Assembly (NCBI GenBank): GCA_026388185.1
Contig: JAPLKG010000014.1
Location: 143,281-207,280 of the forward strand
DNA from: Candidatus Eisenbacteria bacterium
GTDB lineage: Bacteria > Eisenbacteria > RBG-16-71-46 > JAFGJU01
Reading direction: 5' to 3'
Length of the DNA: 64,000 nucleotides
Shown: in pieces, positions 3,739 to 22,380 of the stretch
Layout: each line of letters begins with the position of its first letter
Numbering within the stretch: position 1 is the first letter of the stretch
Program-made: the position numbers and the translations under genes
Notes under the pieces: generated by a model
Seen by the model: only the letters and a program-made list of their open reading frames with translations
The model's database searches: none
Told to the model about the DNA's origin: nothing

Positions 3739-4012
3739 CTTACCCCTCCATAAGAACTAACCCAAACAAAGACAGACTCAGCTACATCTGCAGGGTGGTC
3801 GTTTGTCCTCAGTAGTGTTTGAAAAAGAGTCCTTCAAAAGCCGAGAAGCAGACCCCCAGGATTGGCCCAATTAAGAGTGGTTTAGTGTGTTGCAAAAACA
3901 ACAGTTTTCTTGGGTTGAGTATATGAAAGACAACGTTCCTTTTCAAGGCAAAAAGTGACGTTCTCTGGTTACGACGAACATCAGACCGGAGGTTTAATGT
4001 TACTGCAACACC

Positions 4013-4110
4013 CCAAAAACCAAGTATCCAAAGAATGCCAAAAAAACCAATTTGTAAGAGTCCCAAAAACCCAAAATTCTGAAAGAACAAAAACCAAAAT
4101 GTTAGAGACC
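4013..4110 (+). repeat. Four imperfect 25-bp direct repeats (iteron-like)
   Basis: Units begin at about 4013, 4038, 4063 and 4088. Each opens with CCAAAAACC or a close variant (CCAAAAAAACC in the second) followed by an A-rich, purine-rich tail ending near AAGA. The oligo-A tracts start at 4015, 4040, 4065 and 4089, spacings of 25, 25 and 24 bp. They lie directly beside the AT-rich stretch of the dnaA-dnaN spacer, as iterons do in replication origins. The binding partner is unknown. Confidence 0.6.
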
Positions 4111-4296
4111 GGCCGAGACGTTTATATACATCTTTTTATACTTCTACATACTTTATATCTAAAGATAGTTGAATATGTAGGGGACGTAAAATGTGTTAAT
4201 CAACGATACATTCTCTCCTAATTGTTTATAAGACAATTGGTTATCAATTGATGTGTTGTTGGTTTGTTTCTGAATAATCCCGGGGTTTTGTCTGTT

Positions 4297-4367
4297 TTCT
4301 GCACATGTTAGACACTGGTTTCCTTTTTCCCCAGGATGCCCACAGCCAGTTCACTGGTTTCTTCACA
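4297..4367 (+). promoter_or_regulatory. Two DnaA-box-like sites beside the AT-rich spacer
   Basis: TTCTGCACA at 4297-4305 and TTCTTCACA at 4359-4367 each differ from the consensus TTATNCACA at the third base only, and both are on the same strand. They flank the 3' end of dnaA and lie next to the AT-rich stretch at 4116-4260. Confidence 0.45.
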
Positions 4368-4392
4368 AGAGACACAATCGGGCGGCAAGGTC

Positions 4393-5781: not shown

Positions 5782-5897
5782 TTATCCTCAGCAATCAACA
5801 ACTAATTCACAAGGCATTCCACATAGGCACGCCAAGTTAAATATCGAATTCACACCAAATGCGGAAGAGGCGCCCAAGTTGTCCACATTCATCCACA
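5782..5897 (+). promoter_or_regulatory. DnaA-box cluster upstream of dnaA
   Basis: Four sites on the plus strand are each one base off consensus TTATNCACA: TTATCCTCA (5782-5790, overlapping the dnaA ribosome-binding region), TAATTCACA (5803-5811), TTGTCCACA (5879-5887) and TCATCCACA (5889-5897). The last two are tandem with one base between them. They may control dnaA expression and/or form the upstream half of a bipartite origin. Confidence 0.55.
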
Positions 5898-6380: not shown

Positions 6381-7982
6381 ATGCAACTCAACTCCTTCTT
6401 GCTCTCGAACAAGAATCTCCGGTTTCGGATCGTCATCCTTGCTTTGGGCCTCGCGCTGGGCCTCGCGCTTTCTCTGTCGGGAGCACAAGCGGCCCCGTCA
6501 GGGGCCGAGCGCGACACCTGCGACACGCGCCTCACCATTCTCTCTATCACGGACTTACATGGAGCACTTCTTTCCGAAGACAAAGACTTCGCTACGGGGA
6601 AACCCGTTGGCGGAGCAGCCGTGGTGGGCGCCTACATAGAGGCCGAGAGAGACAGCTCGACGGGGCCGGTACTTGTTCTCGCGAGCGGTGACATGATGCA
6701 GGGTTCGGCGATTTCGAACCTGAGCATGGGGGAGGCGGTGATCGAGTTCATGAACCGGCTCGGTTTCGAAGCCTGCGCGGTCGGCAATCACGAATTCGAT
6801 TGGGGTGTGGATGTGCTCAAGGAGCGGATCAAACAGGCGAAGTTTCCTTTTCTGGTCGCGAACATTTTCTCCGGCTCCGGGTCAAAGAGACCGAATTGGG
6901 CCGTCCCCTACACCGTGGTTCAAAAAGGGAATCTCAAGATCGGAATCATCGGCGTGATTACCGAAGACGCCCCGGTCGTCATCAATCCGAAGAGTATCGA
7001 GGGCCTCAGGTTCGATCGCCCCGACTCGCTGGTAAACAAGCTCGCGGCGCAGCTTCGACATGAAGGAGTAAACGTCATAATAGTCCTGGCGCACACCGGG
7101 GGGACCCAAGAGGAAAACGGCACGGTCACGGGTCCCATTGCAGGCTTTGCCTCGAAACTCGAGGGCGTTGACGCGGTTTTGGGTGGACACAGCCACACCG
7201 TTGTCTCGGGCACAGTGAATTCGATTCCCGTAGTCATCGCCGGCGCGAACGGCGTGCGGCTTGGGATTGTGCGGCTTCGGGTCGACGTGTGCGAGGGAGG
7301 GAGCTCTCTCCTCGAGGAGACGGTCAAGCCCACCTTTGCCGAGGATGTGGAGCCGGACCAAGCGGTCGCGTGTATGATCGAATCTTACCGGGAGAAGCTT
7401 GCGAGTCAATTGGACAGGGTGGTCGCCATCGCGTCCGGCCCGATCGTGAGGGGCCGCCAGGAAAGCGCCCTGGGGGACCTCGTCTGCGATATCATGCGGA
7501 GTGCGGTTGGAGCGGCAGTGGCCTACCAAAACTCGGGCGGAGTCAGGGCCGACCTGGATGAAGGGCCCATCACGGGAGGGGAAATATACAGAATCATGCC
7601 CTTCGACAATACGATTGTTACGATGTATCTTACCGGCGCACAAGTGAAAGAGGCGCTCGAGCAGGGCACGACAGAAAGAGGAGTAGTGCAGGTTTCGGGA
7701 ATACACTACACCTACAAGCCGGGCAATCCTTCCGGCCAGAGGATACAATCCGTGACGCTGGAAGACGGAAAGCCTATCTCTCCCAAGAAGCTTTATCTGG
7801 TTGCCACCAATGACTTCATGGCAAACGGCGGCGATAGATTCACGGTTTTCAAGGCAGGAAAGAAGATACGTAACACCCAGCTTCTGGTACGGGACGCCGT
7901 AATATCCTGGATGGAGGCGCGCAACAAGGCTGGCGAGAAGATCGCGTCTCCCAAGTTGGGAAGAGCTGAGATGGTTCAGTAG
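6381..7982 (+). CDS. Secreted bifunctional metallophosphatase / 5'-nucleotidase
   Basis: Periplasmic or surface enzyme of the UshA/5'-nucleotidase family, which hydrolyses nucleotides and often UDP-sugars. From the chosen ATG it has 533 residues with a hydrophobic signal peptide ending near A-Q-A-A. The calcineurin-like domain shows I-T-D-L-H-G, L-A-S-G-D-M-M-Q-G, the catalytic V-G-N-H-E-F-D, A-H-T-G-G and G-G-H-S-H, which together bind two metals. The C-terminal 5'-nucleotidase domain shows Y-Q-N-S-G-G-V-R-A-D, I-M-P-F-D-N-T and A-T-N-D-F-M-A-N-G-G-D. The ATG at 6381 is chosen because GGGAG at 6367-6371 is correctly spaced from it; the ATG at 6372 would sit directly on that site. A small gene follows at 8074. 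Substrate specificity is not evident. Confidence 0.92.
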   Translation: MQLNSFLLSNKNLRFRIVILALGLALGLALSLSGAQAAPSGAERDTCDTRLTILSITDLHGALLSEDKDFATGKPVGGAAVVGAYIEAERDSSTGPVLVLASGDMMQGSAISNLSMGEAVIEFMNRLGFEACAVGNHEFDWGVDVLKERIKQAKFPFLVANIFSGSGSKRPNWAVPYTVVQKGNLKIGIIGVITEDAPVVINPKSIEGLRFDRPDSLVNKLAAQLRHEGVNVIIVLAHTGGTQEENGTVTGPIAGFASKLEGVDAVLGGHSHTVVSGTVNSIPVVIAGANGVRLGIVRLRVDVCEGGSSLLEETVKPTFAEDVEPDQAVACMIESYREKLASQLDRVVAIASGPIVRGRQESALGDLVCDIMRSAVGAAVAYQNSGGVRADLDEGPITGGEIYRIMPFDNTIVTMYLTGAQVKEALEQGTTERGVVQVSGIHYTYKPGNPSGQRIQSVTLEDGKPISPKKLYLVATNDFMANGGDRFTVFKAGKKIRNTQLLVRDAVISWMEARNKAGEKIASPKLGRAEMVQ

Positions 7983-17291: not shown

Positions 17292-17307
17292 CGTTTCACG
17301 TGAAACA
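17292..17307. promoter_or_regulatory. parS site 1
   Basis: CGTTTCACGTGAAACA, one mismatch at the first base from the universal parS TGTTNCACGTGAAACA. Confidence 0.9.
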
Positions 17308-17371
17308 TTCAGGATGCTTCGAGTCTCCGAATCGGGTGCACGACTAATACCGGCAATTTCCGGTGCTTGGA

Positions 17372-17387
17372 TGTTTCACGTGAAACA
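17372..17387. promoter_or_regulatory. parS site 2
   Basis: TGTTTCACGTGAAACA, a perfect parS palindrome. Confidence 0.96.
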
Positions 17388-17460
17388 CTCGGGGCCAAGC
17401 GCCGCGCTCCTCGAACCCTGGCGAGCCACGTGCCAGGAGAGCAATCGGACTGGCGTCGAA

Positions 17461-17476
17461 TGTTCCACGTGAAACA
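17461..17476. promoter_or_regulatory. parS site 3
   Basis: TGTTCCACGTGAAACA, a full match to TGTTNCACGTGAAACA with C at the variable base. Confidence 0.95.
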
Positions 17477-17953
17477 ATGCCGCGCAGTCGGGATCGCGCA
17501 CCCTAGATGCGCGTCTGCGACCCAGGGGGTACAACGCGATTCAAAGCGAGAACTCGAGCCGTACGCACTGGGTTCGACCATCCGCATGGCTTCCCCGATG
17601 CTGTGTGGGGTGAGGGGCGATTCGAGGCGGCAAGCCGAGCTGCAACGTATTGCCCCGGTCGCAAGTCCTGGCCACAAGGCCAGTGGACAATCCGCAGCCC
17701 TGGCATCCTTTTCCGTTGACACGCGTCTGGTTCATGATATTCTTAACCCAACTCGTTTCCGCGCTTGGCGTCCGTCCCTGGCGACGGAGTGCGGCTTGAG
17801 TCTTTCTATCTTGATGTCGTGTTCCAGGTTGAATGGGTCGGTGAGGATGGTTGAGAGAGAGCGTCGCGGTTACGGCTGTACGGGGCTGACGGAGGCGAGG
17901 CTTAGAAGAGATTCTCAAGTGACTCTCTAGAATCGTGCTGGCACAAAAAGGGA

Positions 17954-17969
17954 TGTTTCACGTGAAACA
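17954..17969. promoter_or_regulatory. parS site 4
   Basis: TGTTTCACGTGAAACA, a perfect parS palindrome. Confidence 0.96.
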
Positions 17970-18033
17970 ATCGGGATGTTCTGAGATCGCGGCCAGGAGG
18001 CGGAACTCTCGTAGGAGCTCCCGGAGGTCCGAA

Positions 18034-18049
18034 TGTTCCACGTGAAACG
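18034..18049. promoter_or_regulatory. parS site 5
   Basis: TGTTCCACGTGAAACG, one mismatch at the last base. Confidence 0.9.
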
Positions 18050-18206
18050 TTTCAATAGACTCAGAATCTCTGGCCCCGCGAAGAAGTCGCCATGGATAGC
18101 GCGATGCGCGCTCGATGGCAGTACATCGTTGGATGGTGTGATAGGGTGCCCGGGAGCAGCCGGTCTAGCGTGAAGCCATTGAATCAGAGTGTCTGGAGGA
18201 AGGGAA

Positions 18207-18968
18207 ATGGGTAGGGTCATAGCTGTAGCTAATCAGAAGGGTGGAGTTGGGAAGACCACAACCGCCGTGAACCTGTCTGCCTGCTTGGCGTACTTGGGCC
18301 GGAAGGTGCTTCTGCTGGACGTGGATCCACAGGGGAACGCCTCAAGTGGGCTGGGAATCGACGGAGACAATGCGGAGACTTCCATCTACGACGTCTTGGT
18401 CAGCGGCGTCCCGCTCGAGAAGGCCGTCGTCCCCGGTCCGTTGCCCACGCTGGAAGTCGTCCCTTCGTGCCAAAAACTCATCGGCGCGGAGATAGAACTT
18501 GTTGGAATGCTCGCCCGCGAGAGCAGGCTCCGCAGCAGTATGAAGGAGGTCAGAGACAAGTACGATTTTTGCGTCCTTGACTGTCCTCCCTCGTTGGGAT
18601 TGCTTACCGTCAACACTCTGACGGCTGCCGACTCGGTCCTGATTCCCGTGCAATGCGAGTACTACGCCCTGGAAGGAATTGGGCAACTTCTGGCTGCAAT
18701 AAGACTTGTGCAGCAAAACCTAAACCCTACCCTCAGAATCGAGGGGGTTCTGCTTACCATGTATGACTCACGGCTGAACCTGTGTCAGCAGGTGGCAGAC
18801 GAGACGAAGAATTTCTTCGCCGAGAGAGTGTATAGAACTGTGATACCAAGAAACGTTAGGCTCAGCGAGGCACCGGGGTTCGGCAAGCCGATCTTACTCT
18901 ACGACTCCAAGTGCCCGGGTGCGCAGAGTTACATGGAACTGGCAAAGGAAGTGATCGAAAATGGCTAG
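18207..18968 (+). CDS. parA: Chromosome-partitioning ATPase ParA (Soj)
   Basis: Walker-type ATPase that binds nucleoid DNA and drives segregation of ParB-parS complexes. It has 253 residues from the ATG at 18207, with GGAGGAAGGG immediately upstream; an in-frame GTG at 18189 would place this ribosome-binding site inside the gene. The deviant Walker A motif K-G-G-V-G-K-T-T-T-A-V-N-L is at about residues 11-23. Walker A' is L-L-L-D-V-D-P-Q-G-N-A-S-S-G-L-G, and the Walker B region is F-C-V-L-D-C-P-P-S-L-G. Near the end R-L-S-E-A-P-G-F-G-K-P is typical of chromosomal Soj. The gene overlaps parB by 8 bp. Confidence 0.97.
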   Translation: MGRVIAVANQKGGVGKTTTAVNLSACLAYLGRKVLLLDVDPQGNASSGLGIDGDNAETSIYDVLVSGVPLEKAVVPGPLPTLEVVPSCQKLIGAEIELVGMLARESRLRSSMKEVRDKYDFCVLDCPPSLGLLTVNTLTAADSVLIPVQCEYYALEGIGQLLAAIRLVQQNLNPTLRIEGVLLTMYDSRLNLCQQVADETKNFFAERVYRTVIPRNVRLSEAPGFGKPILLYDSKCPGAQSYMELAKEVIENG

Positions 18969-19824
18969 AAAAGTTCTTGGTCGAGGCATTAAGACATTAT
19001 TACCAGAGGACATAGGGCTCACCACAATGAGACCGAGCGCCGGACTTCTGGAAATCCCCGTGGATGAAATAAAGCGCAATCCCAGGCAACCCAGAAGCTC
19101 GATGAACGAGCGGGCACTTGCCGAGCTGTCAGAGTCAATCAGACTGCGAGGAGTAATCCAGCCAGTGGTGGTCAGAAGAACCGACACCGGATACGAACTT
19201 GTGGCGGGGGAGCGACGATTTCTTGCGTGTAAGAAGGCTGGCTTCAATAAGATACCTGCGATCGTGAAGGAGGCCGGAGAAGAAGATTCGATGGAGCTCG
19301 CGCTGATCGAGAACATCCAGAGGGAAGACCTCAACTCGGTAGATGAGGCTCGAGCCTACCGGACTCTCATGTCTGAGTTCTCTCTCACGCAGGATGAGCT
19401 GGCGATGAAGGTTGGAAGGGAACGCTCGTCTGTGGCTAATTGCTTGCGTATATTGAAGTTACCGGATACGATCCTGGACATGATTGCGTCCGGGGCGATA
19501 AGCTCCGGCCACGGGAGAGCGCTTCTTTCTTTGGAAGAGACCGGCGAACAAATCTCCATCGCACGGAAAGCGGCGGCAAAAGGGATGAGCGTGCGGGAGA
19601 CCGAAGCTCTGGTTAACCGGCTCATAAGAAGACGAAAGAGGCCGGGCCACGGAAGGGCACGCCCCTCGGAGATAGTCGATCTTGAGGACAAGCTGAGGAG
19701 TTTCCTGGCGACCAGCGTGCGCATAAGTTGGAGGGGGCGAAAAGGGAAGATCGAGATTGAGTACTACAGCAACGAAGAACTCGAGCGCATCCTGGAACAG
19801 ATCGGCGTGCTGGCTCATGAGTGA
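18961..19824 (+). CDS. parB: Chromosome-partitioning protein ParB (Spo0J), CTP-dependent clamp
   Basis: Binds parS and, using CTP, slides along DNA as a clamp. It has 287 residues. The N-terminal R-K-V-L-G-R-G-I-K-T-L-L contains the ParA-contacting tail. The CTPase core carries N-P-R-Q-P-R and G-E-R-R-F-L-A-C (the G-E-R-R-x-x-A CTP motif), then E-N-I-Q-R-E-D-L-N. The parS-binding helix-turn-helix (V-G-R-E-R-S-S-V-A-N-C-L-R-I-L-K-L-P) is followed by S-S-G-H-G-R-A-L-L. A C-terminal dimerisation domain ends with a leucine-rich helix. Five parS sites lie upstream of the operon. Confidence 0.97.
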   Translation: MARKVLGRGIKTLLPEDIGLTTMRPSAGLLEIPVDEIKRNPRQPRSSMNERALAELSESIRLRGVIQPVVVRRTDTGYELVAGERRFLACKKAGFNKIPAIVKEAGEEDSMELALIENIQREDLNSVDEARAYRTLMSEFSLTQDELAMKVGRERSSVANCLRILKLPDTILDMIASGAISSGHGRALLSLEETGEQISIARKAAAKGMSVRETEALVNRLIRRRKRPGHGRARPSEIVDLEDKLRSFLATSVRISWRGRKGKIEIEYYSNEELERILEQIGVLAHE

Positions 19825-19953: not shown

Positions 19954-20718
19954 ATGAAGATGGGGCGACACAATCGAGTCTTCAGCATCATACTGGTCCC
20001 GCCCGGCGGAGGAAAGCCGCGGAGTCTCAGGTTCGGCAAGAAGCAAATGCTTTTTGCCGCGACTGCGGCCGGCATCTTGGTGGTCTTGCTCGTGGTTTCC
20101 CTCACTGTCTTGGGGAGGATGGGGCGTTTCTCCATCGCAATAGCGCGGCTCAAGAGTGAAAACACAAAACTAAGAGAGGAGAGGCAAAAGCTCGCACTAC
20201 TTGAGGACGAGCTCGGTCGTCTCAGGGTGCTCGAGGGCAAGCTTGCGGCCCTCCTCGGGGTGGAAAAGAAGAACGTCCGGGGGCTCACGGTGAGTCCCGC
20301 GAGCGTGTTCACGCAGGAGTTGACGGAACAGCGCGCTTCTGGGGGGAACGCGCCTACGCTGTGGCCCGTGCGAGGGAGGGTGTCGCGAGGTTTTTCGAAT
20401 GAGCCGGGGGGACACAAGGGGATTGACATAGCAGTTCGGGGAGAAACACCCGTGAGGGCGGCAGGGAATGGATTGGTTGAGGTTGCGGGCCAGGATGCAG
20501 TCTTTGGCAACATGGTAATAGTCAACCACGGCTCGGGAATCAGCACTCTCTACGGACACAACTCAAAGCTGAGCGTAACGAGAGGTGACAGCGTCAAGAA
20601 GGGCCAGACAATCGCGTATTCGGGAAGCAGTGGCAACAGCACGGCACCGCACCTGCACTTTGAGATAACTCGCAACGGTAAACAGGTGGATCCGCTCACC
20701 TTCTTGAGCGAACAGTAG
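19954..20718 (+). CDS. Membrane-anchored M23 (LytM) peptidoglycan endopeptidase
   Basis: A 254-residue bitopic protein. A short cytoplasmic tail (F-S-I-I-L-V-P-P-G-G-G-K-P-R-S-L-R-F) is followed by a transmembrane helix (about residues 33-55), a coiled coil (about 62-100) and a LytM domain (about 137-250). Zinc and catalytic motifs are intact: H-K-G-I-D-I-A, Y-G-H-N and P-H-L-H-F-E. An active zinc endopeptidase cleaving peptide cross-links is expected. The bactofilin gene starts 20 bp downstream. Bactofilin-M23 pairs are known from several phyla, where the cytoplasmic tail of the peptidase docks on the bactofilin polymer; the V-P-P/S-L-R tail here is a plausible docking motif (inference). Confidence 0.9.
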   Translation: MKMGRHNRVFSIILVPPGGGKPRSLRFGKKQMLFAATAAGILVVLLVVSLTVLGRMGRFSIAIARLKSENTKLREERQKLALLEDELGRLRVLEGKLAALLGVEKKNVRGLTVSPASVFTQELTEQRASGGNAPTLWPVRGRVSRGFSNEPGGHKGIDIAVRGETPVRAAGNGLVEVAGQDAVFGNMVIVNHGSGISTLYGHNSKLSVTRGDSVKKGQTIAYSGSSGNSTAPHLHFEITRNGKQVDPLTFLSEQ

Positions 20719-20738
20719 GCAACCGAGAGGAGGCCATC

Positions 20739-21128
20739 ATGTTCGGGTTTAGCTTTCGAAAGGAAGGGGTTATTGAGGGGAAGCTCAACTGCATCGTGGG
20801 GGAGGAATCAACGTTCAAAGGCGACATCAACGTGAGTGGAAGCGTGAGGATCGACGGCGAATTCGAAGGGCACATTGCCGCAACGCAATCCCTGCTGATT
20901 GGGAAGACGGGCATCGTCAAGGCCGACGTGGAGGTGAGAGACTTGATGGTAGCCGGTGTGATTGTAGGAAACCTGAAGGCCGTAGATAGGGTAGAACTAC
21001 ATACGGGGGCCAGGGTTGACGGCGATATAGAGACCGGTAGCCTTGTGGTGGACGATGGGGTCGTCTTTAACGGCAGATGTTTCATGCACGAAGCACCGCA
21101 GGAGGTGTCCACCCAGCCCGTTGGGTAG
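20739..21128 (+). CDS. Bactofilin
   Basis: Cytoskeletal polymer-forming protein of 129 residues. The central bactofilin domain (about residues 13-105) is made of short repeated beta-strands with regularly spaced hydrophobics and glycines, e.g. F-K-G-D-I-N-V-S-G-S-V-R-I-D-G and V-I-V-G-N-L-K-A-V-D-R-V-E-L. Short flexible tails flank it. The N-terminal M-F-G-F-S-F is a hydrophobic patch often involved in membrane association. It is coupled to the upstream M23 peptidase, suggesting that it positions cell-wall cleavage and so shapes the cell. Confidence 0.93.
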   Translation: MFGFSFRKEGVIEGKLNCIVGEESTFKGDINVSGSVRIDGEFEGHIAATQSLLIGKTGIVKADVEVRDLMVAGVIVGNLKAVDRVELHTGARVDGDIETGSLVVDDGVVFNGRCFMHEAPQEVSTQPVG

Positions 21129-21197
21129 GGACAAGTTGGGGTATTGAATGATGCCGGCGCGAAGAGCGCTGCCGACCGGCGTGAATTGCTTCTCAAA

Positions 21198-21313
21198 CGT
21201 GGATAATTGTGGAAATGTGGAAAACCACCCCAAAAAGCTCAAATAGCCCTAACATCTTTAATATGAATGAATTACGCGAGCACTCCGCATGAGGGAGCCA
21301 AGAGTTATGCACA
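21198..21313 (+). promoter_or_regulatory. DnaA-box cluster between bactofilin and moxR genes
   Basis: CGTGGATAA (21198-21206, one mismatch to TGTGGATAA), TGTGGAAAT (21208-21216, two mismatches) and TGTGGAAAA (21216-21224, one mismatch) are tandem in one orientation. A perfect TTATGCACA (21305-21313) is in the opposite orientation. An AT-rich stretch lies between them (about 21238-21280). The 247-bp spacer (21129-21375) has no gene. It may be a DnaA-regulated promoter for moxR, a titration site, or an accessory origin element. Confidence 0.5.
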
Positions 21314-21375
21314 CGGAGGCGGAGTCCGTTGAGGCGAGCGGCTTCCGGGCTTCATAGGGTACGAAAGGCTAGGGT

Positions 21376-22380
21376 ATGGAGAAGAACCAGCTACAACATA
21401 TTGAGGACTTGAGAAACGCACGGCAGAGAGTTGCATCGGAACTTCACAAGGTCATCATAGACCAAGAGCGCGTAGTGGAAGAGTTGCTCGTAGCTCTGTT
21501 TGCCGGCGGGCACTGTCTGATCGTTGGTGTCCCGGGCCTCGCAAAGACTCTTCTGGTAAGCAGCATCGCCAAGGTGCTGGACCTCAAGTTCGCGAGGATT
21601 CAGTTCACGCCCGACCTCATGCCCTCCGATATTACCGGAGCCGACATCCTGCACGAGGATCCGGTTACGAAGTCGCGCGTCTTCAAGTTTGTCAAAGGCC
21701 CCATCTTCTCGAACATCGTTCTTGCGGACGAGATCAACCGTACCCCACCCAAGACACAGTCCGCCTTGCTCCAGGCAATGCAGGAGTACGAGGTGACTGC
21801 CGCCGGAGAAACCTACAAGCTGGACATGCCTTTCTTTGTCCTGGCCACGCAGAACCCAATTGAGCTCGAGGGAACCTACCCTCTTCCGGAGGCTCAGCTA
21901 GACAGGTTCATGTTCAACGTCTACATCGATTACCCCTCCGGAGCCGACGAGAAGCTCATAGTGACTTCGACGACCGGCACAGCCGCGCCCACGCTTGAAC
22001 ACGTGCTGAGCGCCGCTGACGTGCTTGGGCTGCAGAGGACTGTCAGGAGTGTACCCGTGAGCGACTACGTCGTGGACTACGCCGTTCGCTTGGTCAGGGC
22101 CACGAGGCCGACGCAGGACGGCGCTCCAGATTTCGTTAAGTCGTGGGTCAACTGGGGAGCAGGACCTCGGGCTTCTCAATACTTGATACTCGGGGCGAAG
22201 GCAAGGGCCGTTCTCCGCGGAGAGTTGACTCCTTCGTGTGAAGACGTTAGGCAAGTGGCTACGAGCGTCCTGAGGCACAGAGTCCTGACAAACTTTAGCG
22301 CCGAGGCCGAAGGAGTCACGGCGACAGACTTGATAACAAAACTACTCGGAACAGTTCCCGAAGAGGGGCGAAAGGCCTAA
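21376..22380 (+). CDS. MoxR-family AAA+ ATPase
   Basis: Cytoplasmic AAA+ chaperone of 334 residues. Walker A is G-V-P-G-L-A-K-T-L-L (about residues 51-60), Walker B is I-V-L-A-D-E-I-N-R-T-P-P-K-T-Q-S-A-L-L, and sensor 1 is L-A-T-Q-N-P-I-E-L-E-G-T-Y-P-L-P-E-A-Q-L-D-R-F (spelled in parts; continuous in the protein). The C-terminal AAA lid is intact. MoxR ATPases act with vWA proteins, and here the DUF58 and BatA-type vWA genes follow directly, the standard trio. Members of this set are linked to stress tolerance and to maturation of periplasmic or membrane complexes. Confidence 0.94.
   Translation: MEKNQLQHIEDLRNARQRVASELHKVIIDQERVVEELLVALFAGGHCLIVGVPGLAKTLLVSSIAKVLDLKFARIQFTPDLMPSDITGADILHEDPVTKSRVFKFVKGPIFSNIVLADEINRTPPKTQSALLQAMQEYEVTAAGETYKLDMPFFVLATQNPIELEGTYPLPEAQLDRFMFNVYIDYPSGADEKLIVTSTTGTAAPTLEHVLSAADVLGLQRTVRSVPVSDYVVDYAVRLVRATRPTQDGAPDFVKSWVNWGAGPRASQYLILGAKARAVLRGELTPSCEDVRQVATSVLRHRVLTNFSAEAEGVTATDLITKLLGTVPEEGRKA

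Follow-up and report, generated by a model that had tools for sequence, protein, structure and literature searches.

A divergent DnaA-box element of conserved spacing downstream of the parAB operon in a Candidatus Eisenbacteria genome and its relatives, a candidate extra-origin control site

DnaA-box clusters outside the replication origin are already known as a kind, represented by datA and DARS in Escherichia coli and by clusters in Bacillus subtilis and Streptomyces. The B. subtilis clusters outside oriC were reportedly described by Okumura et al. in 2012, and the Streptomyces cluster is said to have been reported by Smulczyk-Krawczyszyn et al. in 2006. To our knowledge, the control of re-initiation in bacteria without Hda, SeqA, datA and DARS is largely open beyond model species. 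According to passages of one paper (PMC10950094), datA lies downstream of the glyV-X-Y transcription unit, is said to inactivate DnaA-ATP and is reportedly tuned by read-through from the preceding operon; the same passages ascribe datA-like roles to clusters of this sort in B. subtilis and in Streptomyces and cite the Streptomyces cluster as analogous to datA. Joint loss of the B. subtilis clusters leads to early initiation according to sections of two papers (PMC5295017, PMC13220808), and a section of the former, a review, judges these clusters to be without a significant role in initiation control (PMC5295017).

The element described here comes from a Candidatus Eisenbacteria genome (2.62 Mb, 20 contigs, 98% complete) and was analysed within a window, the whole stretch of 64,000 nucleotides, that is part of contig C14. 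Similar to datA, it is a non-coding DnaA-box cluster outside oriC that follows a transcription unit, but the perfect boxes of datA in strain MG1655 point in the same direction and lie 162 bp apart (4392744 and 4392906), whereas those of the element diverge at 75-100 bp. datA is found ~467 kb from oriC and the element 10-15 kb from dnaA in the four genomes measured, and datA has an IHF site between its essential boxes, whereas in most copies of the element the IHF consensus does not stand out. With DARS1 and DARS2 of E. coli the element has in common that three DnaA boxes, not all facing the same way, are packed into a short piece of non-coding DNA. The DARS-type boxes of E. coli lie at 813107, 813121 and 813133 (bioD-uvrB) and at 2969135, 2969149 and 2969161 (rppH-mutH), triplets that we take to be the DARS cores, in line with the map positions in part of PMC5295017; they have a convergent layout (+ - -) with steps of 14 and 12 bp, whereas the element reads - - + at 20/21 and 88/90 bp. 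Identity with datA or DARS by layout was rejected, as orientation and steps do not match. The B. subtilis clusters likewise lie outside oriC, but there are six of them per genome as opposed to one strong match per genome to a model of the element, and the sections of PMC5295017 and PMC13220808 that deal with them mention no fixed geometry across lineages, unlike what is found for the element. A literature search (titles and abstract openings of non-subscription papers) returned no site with such a layout and constant geometry across lineages.

In the window, the minus strand up to 5775 holds gyrB, dnaN and dnaA, an ordinary origin neighbourhood. The plus strand carries, in this order, a nucleotidase-like gene, rnpA, yidC, jag, mnmE, mnmG, rsmG, parA, parB, an M23-like endopeptidase gene and a bactofilin gene, and beyond them moxR, DUF58, batA and mfd (Table 1). 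A sequence-only reading of this DNA had noted three DnaA sites of the same orientation and a perfect opposite site within 116 bp, 15 kb from dnaA. Scoring against TTWTNCACA places these sites at exactly 21198-21313, 15.4 kb from dnaA, and the observation of clustered DnaA boxes is confirmed. The left-pointing boxes are spaced 10 and 8 bp apart, the last two overlapping by one base (21216). The cluster had also been called denser than the sites at dnaA, which proved wrong since 5782-5897 and the dnaA-dnaN gap each also hold four sites in 116 bp, and closer to consensus, which proved right, with two perfect boxes here and none in either dnaA-flanking set. An AT-rich stretch was said to separate the boxes; the GC content of 21216-21305 is indeed lower than that of the window (46% versus 56%), but the enrichment in AT is merely mild. 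No open reading frame of at least 100 amino acids runs over the boxes, one antisense frame stopping at 21196, and neither a sigma-70-like promoter nor a terminator was found by consensus in 20900-21600. A structured RNA was considered and rejected, with no Rfam match in 20500-22000 and 0 consensus pairs across 13 element sequences.

Table 1. Features of the window around dnaA, the parAB genes and the DnaA-box element
Feature	Position	Strand	Basis and remarks
dnaN-dnaA gap	3739..4392		AT-rich, 50-bp window up to 82% AT; part of likely oriC
dnaA	4393..5775	-	Pfam
Four DnaA-box-like sites upstream of dnaA	5782..5897	+	1 mismatch each; part of likely oriC
parS cluster, five sites	17292..18049		Sites at 17292, 17372, 17461, 17954, 18034; 0-2 mismatches to TGTTTCACGTGAAACA
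parA	18189..18968	+	NCBIfam ParA-type matches, under cut-off
parB (Spo0J/Noc family)	18961..19824	+	NCBIfam TIGR00180, over cut-off
M23-like murein endopeptidase gene	19954..20718	+	NCBIfam M23 enzyme matches, under cut-offs
Bactofilin gene	20739..21128	+	Pfam PF04519; closes parAB-M23-bactofilin run
Intergenic gap, bactofilin to moxR	21129..21375		247 bp, contains all four boxes
DnaA-box-like TTATCCACG	21198..21206	-	1 mismatch; upstream accessory box
DnaA-box-like ATTTCCACA	21208..21216	-	1 mismatch; same tandem in G002, G003
DnaA box TTTTCCACA	21216..21224	-	Perfect; left conserved box (L1)
Spacer	21225..21304		80 bp, constrained length, poorly conserved sequence; second left box (L2) absent in window
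DnaA box TTATGCACA	21305..21313	+	Perfect; conserved right-hand box (R), L1-R distance 89 bp
moxR	21376..22380	+	Pfam; first gene of moxR-DUF58-batA; not constant partner of element

Single boxes carry no meaning in this genome, as perfect boxes are about as frequent as the reversed control pattern (70 versus 76) and thus not enriched. The tightest pair among the 70 perfect sites is that of L1 and R, and the runner-up pair lies 488 bp apart. Over 124 kb of own-genome DNA, three clusters of at least four sites per 116 bp were found, compared to none in each of 60 dinucleotide shuffles, and by the window scan the three are the one in the bactofilin-moxR gap and one on each flank of dnaA. When local intergenic sequence was shuffled (n = 20,000), a cluster of at least four sites arose twice and one with two perfect sites never. 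In 812 kb of class DNA, some stretches of which were counted twice, divergent pairs (70-100 bp, one mismatch allowed) were found at 17 elements and two other places, one before dnaA in G003 and one where a contig of G045 begins, compared to one occurrence of the convergent control. The concern that clusters of this kind might be frequent is therefore not borne out in the DNA examined (own genome and class DNA). A chance run of DnaA-like words within an AT-richer gap is highly improbable as an explanation: a single genome would permit part of the pattern, with ~0.2 pairs within 100 bp expected among 70 perfect sites by our estimate, but the fixed spacing is kept across several families and outside the class.

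The class was searched with the pattern TGTGGAWAAN{70,98}TTWTNCACA (47 genomes, family labels assigned by software). The divergent pair is present in 15 of the 47 genomes, compared to none for the reversed control, and 14 of these matches represent the same element, found at one place per genome with the pair 85-100 bp apart. It occurs in 3/3 genomes of family f1, 1/1 of f2, 8/9 of f4, 1/1 of f6 and 1/1 of f11, and the f4 genome without it (G020) has no parB match either. The fifteenth match (L131, G045:C433:28-125) is a divergent pair at 89 bp in a different context, and the family of that genome, f8, is without the element after parB. A model of the element, R1, was built from sequence alone using 13 of the 14 copies, with G022 left out. 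In the class it finds one strong place per genome at E 1.5e-7 or better, including G022 itself (E 1.5e-7), followed at a distance by the next best match (E 0.012); R1 searches over more than 40 genomes used stricter filters that lose weak matches.

The geometry of the copies is well kept. The spacing between L1 and R is 89-90 bp in 10 of the 14, 88 in G024 and 85 in G007, while the values of 98 (G001) and 100 (G022) correspond to roughly one extra helical turn. Nine of the 14 copies carry L2 20-21 bp in and the right box at 85-90 bp, each with at most one mismatch, and G022 (R at 100) and G025 (L2 with two mismatches) are similar to these. The right box is TTATGCACA in 12/14 copies, TTATACACA in G001 and TTTTGCACA in G024. 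Family f1 lacks L2, the window and G002 carry tandem boxes immediately upstream, and G003 (f2) has both features. Mean column identity across 13 aligned genomes is 0.94 for L1 and 0.98 for R, compared to 0.55 for the spacer. The length of the spacer is thus kept but not its sequence, which is what a protein complex bridging both sides would need. The IHF consensus was compared with shuffles in 19 spacers. In 14 of these at least a fifth of the shuffles score as well, and in the remaining five, the window's included, a one-mismatch match was equalled in 3-11% of shuffles. As the consensus does not stand out in 14/19 spacers, naming the protein that would form a loop is a guess.

In family f9 the divergent pair is found at 75-76 bp in four of five genomes, following bactofilin in G012, G026 and G033 (the last with two mismatches in total) and following M23 in G029, which gave no bactofilin match; in G021 there is just one site. 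No pair lies downstream of parB in f8 (0/18 loci, of which one has hardly any sequence past parB) or in f3, f5, f7 and f10. G004 (f3) has several boxes there but no such pair, and G015 (f10) two boxes arranged differently; in f7, G023 and G009 have a single box apiece and G031 has none, and in G006 (f5) no box was found within the 470 bp examined past bactofilin. Part of the class can thus do without the element. A DnaA tree (28 proteins and that of E. coli) unites f3, f5, f7, f8, f9 and f10 (support 83/89) and leaves outside this group the families in which the pair is 85-100 bp apart; its root is weak, and G020 was scored as element-bearing by family despite its lack of a parB match. The tree fits, as far as its weak root allows, an old element that was reduced in the f3/f5/f7/f8/f9/f10 group.

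For the genomes outside the class (n = 338), this label means no more than membership of the same domain. The simple pair occurs in 72 of them, among the matches listed often in dense arrays, and it is also found at named parB loci, showing that the pair alone is not specific. R1 matched 12/338 genomes at E ≤ 0.001. Five of these matches lie within ~0.6 kb downstream of a bactofilin gene (G052, G149, G201, G286 and G318), two beside dnaA (G168 and G354) and five elsewhere (G051, G174, G181, G310 and G362). Since R1 was made from class elements, its matches outside the class are biased to class geometry; the bactofilin context is not visible to R1 and the copies in family f14 were found via parB, and both are therefore independent of the model. 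The gene order in G318 (M23-bactofilin-element-moxR-DUF58-batA-mfd) is the same as in the window, and parA-parB-M23-bactofilin-element is found in G201, G052 and G340, the last of which was found by the pair pattern and has its divergent pair at 90. The three-box geometry is present in six non-class genomes, in five of them just past bactofilin, with values of 21/90 in G201, G318, G052 and G181 and 20/88 in G149 and G286. In G181 (L249) and G286 (L257) the three-box element lies beside V-type ATPase genes. In f14, identified by the parB survey and not by R1, boxes are found at 0, 11 and 76 in G049 and a pair at 76 in G337, in both cases immediately past bactofilin.

There were 275 non-class genomes in which ParB was matched, and the survey of parB loci took in 80 of them, for the most part as they came in the list of matches; some contig-edge loci and some further ones were left out. 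Bactofilin lies within 5 kb of parB in 34 of the 80, and only G049 has an adjoining pair, which is absent at the other 33 of the parB-bactofilin loci surveyed. Among 80 parB loci from named organisms, mostly Clostridia and 70 of them with at least 2 kb of downstream sequence, the 4 kb following parB never contain the pair. Two perfect boxes in divergent orientation, 79-103 bp apart, are present at 19 of these loci, 18 times ~8-9 kb upstream of parB and once (L220) ~9 kb downstream, and the ten examined have extra boxes around them. At clostridial loci such as L171, L197 and L202, with the pair at 79-81 bp, extra boxes stand at about -23, -11 and +27, and the whole is probably part of the origin. 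A scan of 1.68 Mb of comparison DNA for the three-box geometry found G318 and one place in G088, and the latter, with three imperfect boxes inside a reading frame, was taken as a likely chance match.

The main uncertainty thus concerns the function of the element and not its existence. On balance, and judging from sequence comparison, we favour by a modest degree a conserved extra-origin DnaA-binding element that would limit re-initiation. By analogy with datA and the B. subtilis clusters, it is probably best read as an extra-origin control site near parS that works like these. Titration of DnaA in the manner of datA, one of three ideas put forward in the sequence-only reading, fits best, as each genome has one strongly conserved, origin-proximal non-coding element, and that reading as a whole is partly supported. 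The own genome encodes one DnaA-family match, implying no Hda by that family, as well as four HU/IHF-family genes, and no YabA match was found in it (98% complete). Its DnaA retains the arginine finger and the sensor arginine, and among the positions that contact DNA in the E. coli protein, domain IV matches E. coli at those compared except 423 (alanine for P423). With these residues kept, TTATNCACA-type sites should be read.

A possible mechanism starts with DnaA binding to the left box or boxes (L1, joined by L2 in many relatives) and to the opposite R at its fixed distance. With the spacing constant, DnaA molecules bound on either side may come into contact through bending or looping of the spacer, possibly aided by an HU/IHF-type protein. 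Lying so close to dnaA, and ~3 kb from parS in the window, the element is expected to be replicated very soon after the fork has set out, and its high-affinity sites, now doubled, would then draw DnaA off oriC or promote its inactivation through ATP hydrolysis. Tuning by read-through as in datA would be allowed, since no terminator match separates bactofilin from the element. We more tentatively propose, at somewhat less than even confidence, a new class of DnaA site, in which a three-box nucleoprotein scaffold whose geometry is fixed (20-21 bp between the two left boxes and an opposite box at 88-90 bp, or 11 and 76 in a shorter form), near parABS in several lineages beyond the class of the window, would serve as an origin-proximal brake or switch. 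If true, an extra-oriC DnaA regulatory site would be conserved far more widely than is known for datA or DARS. An element of one geometry near parS would provide a testable cis-acting candidate and a geometry-based way to find such sites, and it offers a possible link of DnaA to the ParABS region.

The genes around the element differ between families. It lies directly 3' of parB in f2 and f4, after parB-M23-bactofilin in f1 and most of f9, and after a parB end fragment (contig start) and M23 in f6, while in f11 an ABC-2 gene and an NHL gene flank it, 3.8 kb ahead of moxR, with the rest hidden by the end of the contig that carries parB. The next gene past the element is moxR in f1 and f4, a BsuPI-domain gene followed by moxR in f2, a convergent Lar_N gene in f6 and an FGE-sulfatase gene in G026 of f9. 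Within the class, what stays constant beside the element is the parAB operon end rather than moxR, and as the element persists where moxR is not a neighbour, the link to moxR is a local fact and not a rule. In the single contig of G002 (L063, L064), parAB-bactofilin-element and the start of moxR are found ~1.5 Mb from the remainder of moxR-DUF58-batA; both stretches contain N runs, and the split is probably a scaffolding error.

The motif had been expected upstream of moxR in relatives, and there it is kept, in 2/2 family members and in 8/8 f4 genomes with a parB match. The suggested tie of moxR-DUF58-BatA to replication does not generalize, however, given elements without an adjoining moxR in f6, f9 (G026), f2, f14 and f17. 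An operator or promoter responsive to DnaA, by which this envelope/stress operon would follow the DnaA level, is quite unlikely. The element does lie immediately 5' of moxR in the window, f1, f4 and G318 (f225), with its right box ~60-110 bp ahead of the moxR start, and in the window no terminator match stands between it and bactofilin, but it is kept next to other genes in f6, G026 and f2, the last with the BsuPI gene intervening. In G049 and G337 (f14) and G052 and G201 (f17) the stretch examined has no moxR match, in f11 the distance given above and other genes intervene, and the window region scanned (20900-21600) has no sigma-70-like promoter.

The proximity of the element to the segregation genes invites another explanation. 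The parS consensus TGTTTCACGTGAAACA was used to call the five sites at 17292-18049, and with up to three mismatches the window contains 6 matches compared to 0.26 expected. The five sites form two groups in the stretch from rsmG to parA, and within a group neighbouring sites are ~80-90 bp apart. DnaA bound to the element, within a region of parS coated by ParB, could meet ParA/Soj and so set origin firing or separation. We consider this coupling unlikely. It would agree with the constant place of the element at the parAB operon end in five class families (f1, f2, f4, f6 and f9), with the five parS sites ~3 kb away in the window, and with ParA/Soj being a known DnaA regulator in B. subtilis, as stated in part of PMC13220808. 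The distance between element and parB, however, is ~20 kb in G286 (f114) and ~34 kb in G181 (f146), and gene order near the origin is generally well kept, so the parAB neighbourhood may be passive.

Apart from acting as the extra-origin control site that we favour, the element could be the true oriC or its remote second half, which had been the third idea and is improbable; the element is probably not the origin. Origins typically contain tandem and inverted DnaA boxes, outside the class the simple pair often sits in origin-like dense arrays among the matches listed, and G003 has a divergent pair upstream of dnaA. From -10 to +40 kb, however, cumulative GC skew in the own genome reaches its minimum at 6595, near dnaA and not at 21.2 kb, and among three f4 contigs G022 likewise turns near dnaA. 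The skew is not clean, as over 124 kb of the own contig it is lowest at the left end, which is 60 kb ahead of the first window position, and G008 and G017 show no turn at dnaA; skew alone thus does not settle the origin. Genes at 6.3-21 kb would be oriented against the fork if replication started at the element. The best 50-bp AT content across the 14 elements is 0.48-0.68, spacers of relatives have a GC content of up to 64%, and an AT-rich unwinding stretch conserved across the 14 was not found, as opposed to the 82% AT of the dnaA-dnaN gap. Of the features of an oriC, the element thus has the DnaA-box cluster but neither the AT-rich unwinding element nor the turning point of the GC skew. Six f4 genomes (L036, L037, L039, L041, L043 and L045) carry an inverted repeat of the kind GGGGCGTAACG...CGTTACGCCCC immediately before the tandem boxes upstream of dnaA, with one arm slightly altered in L039, and this repeat could be an operator or a terminator.
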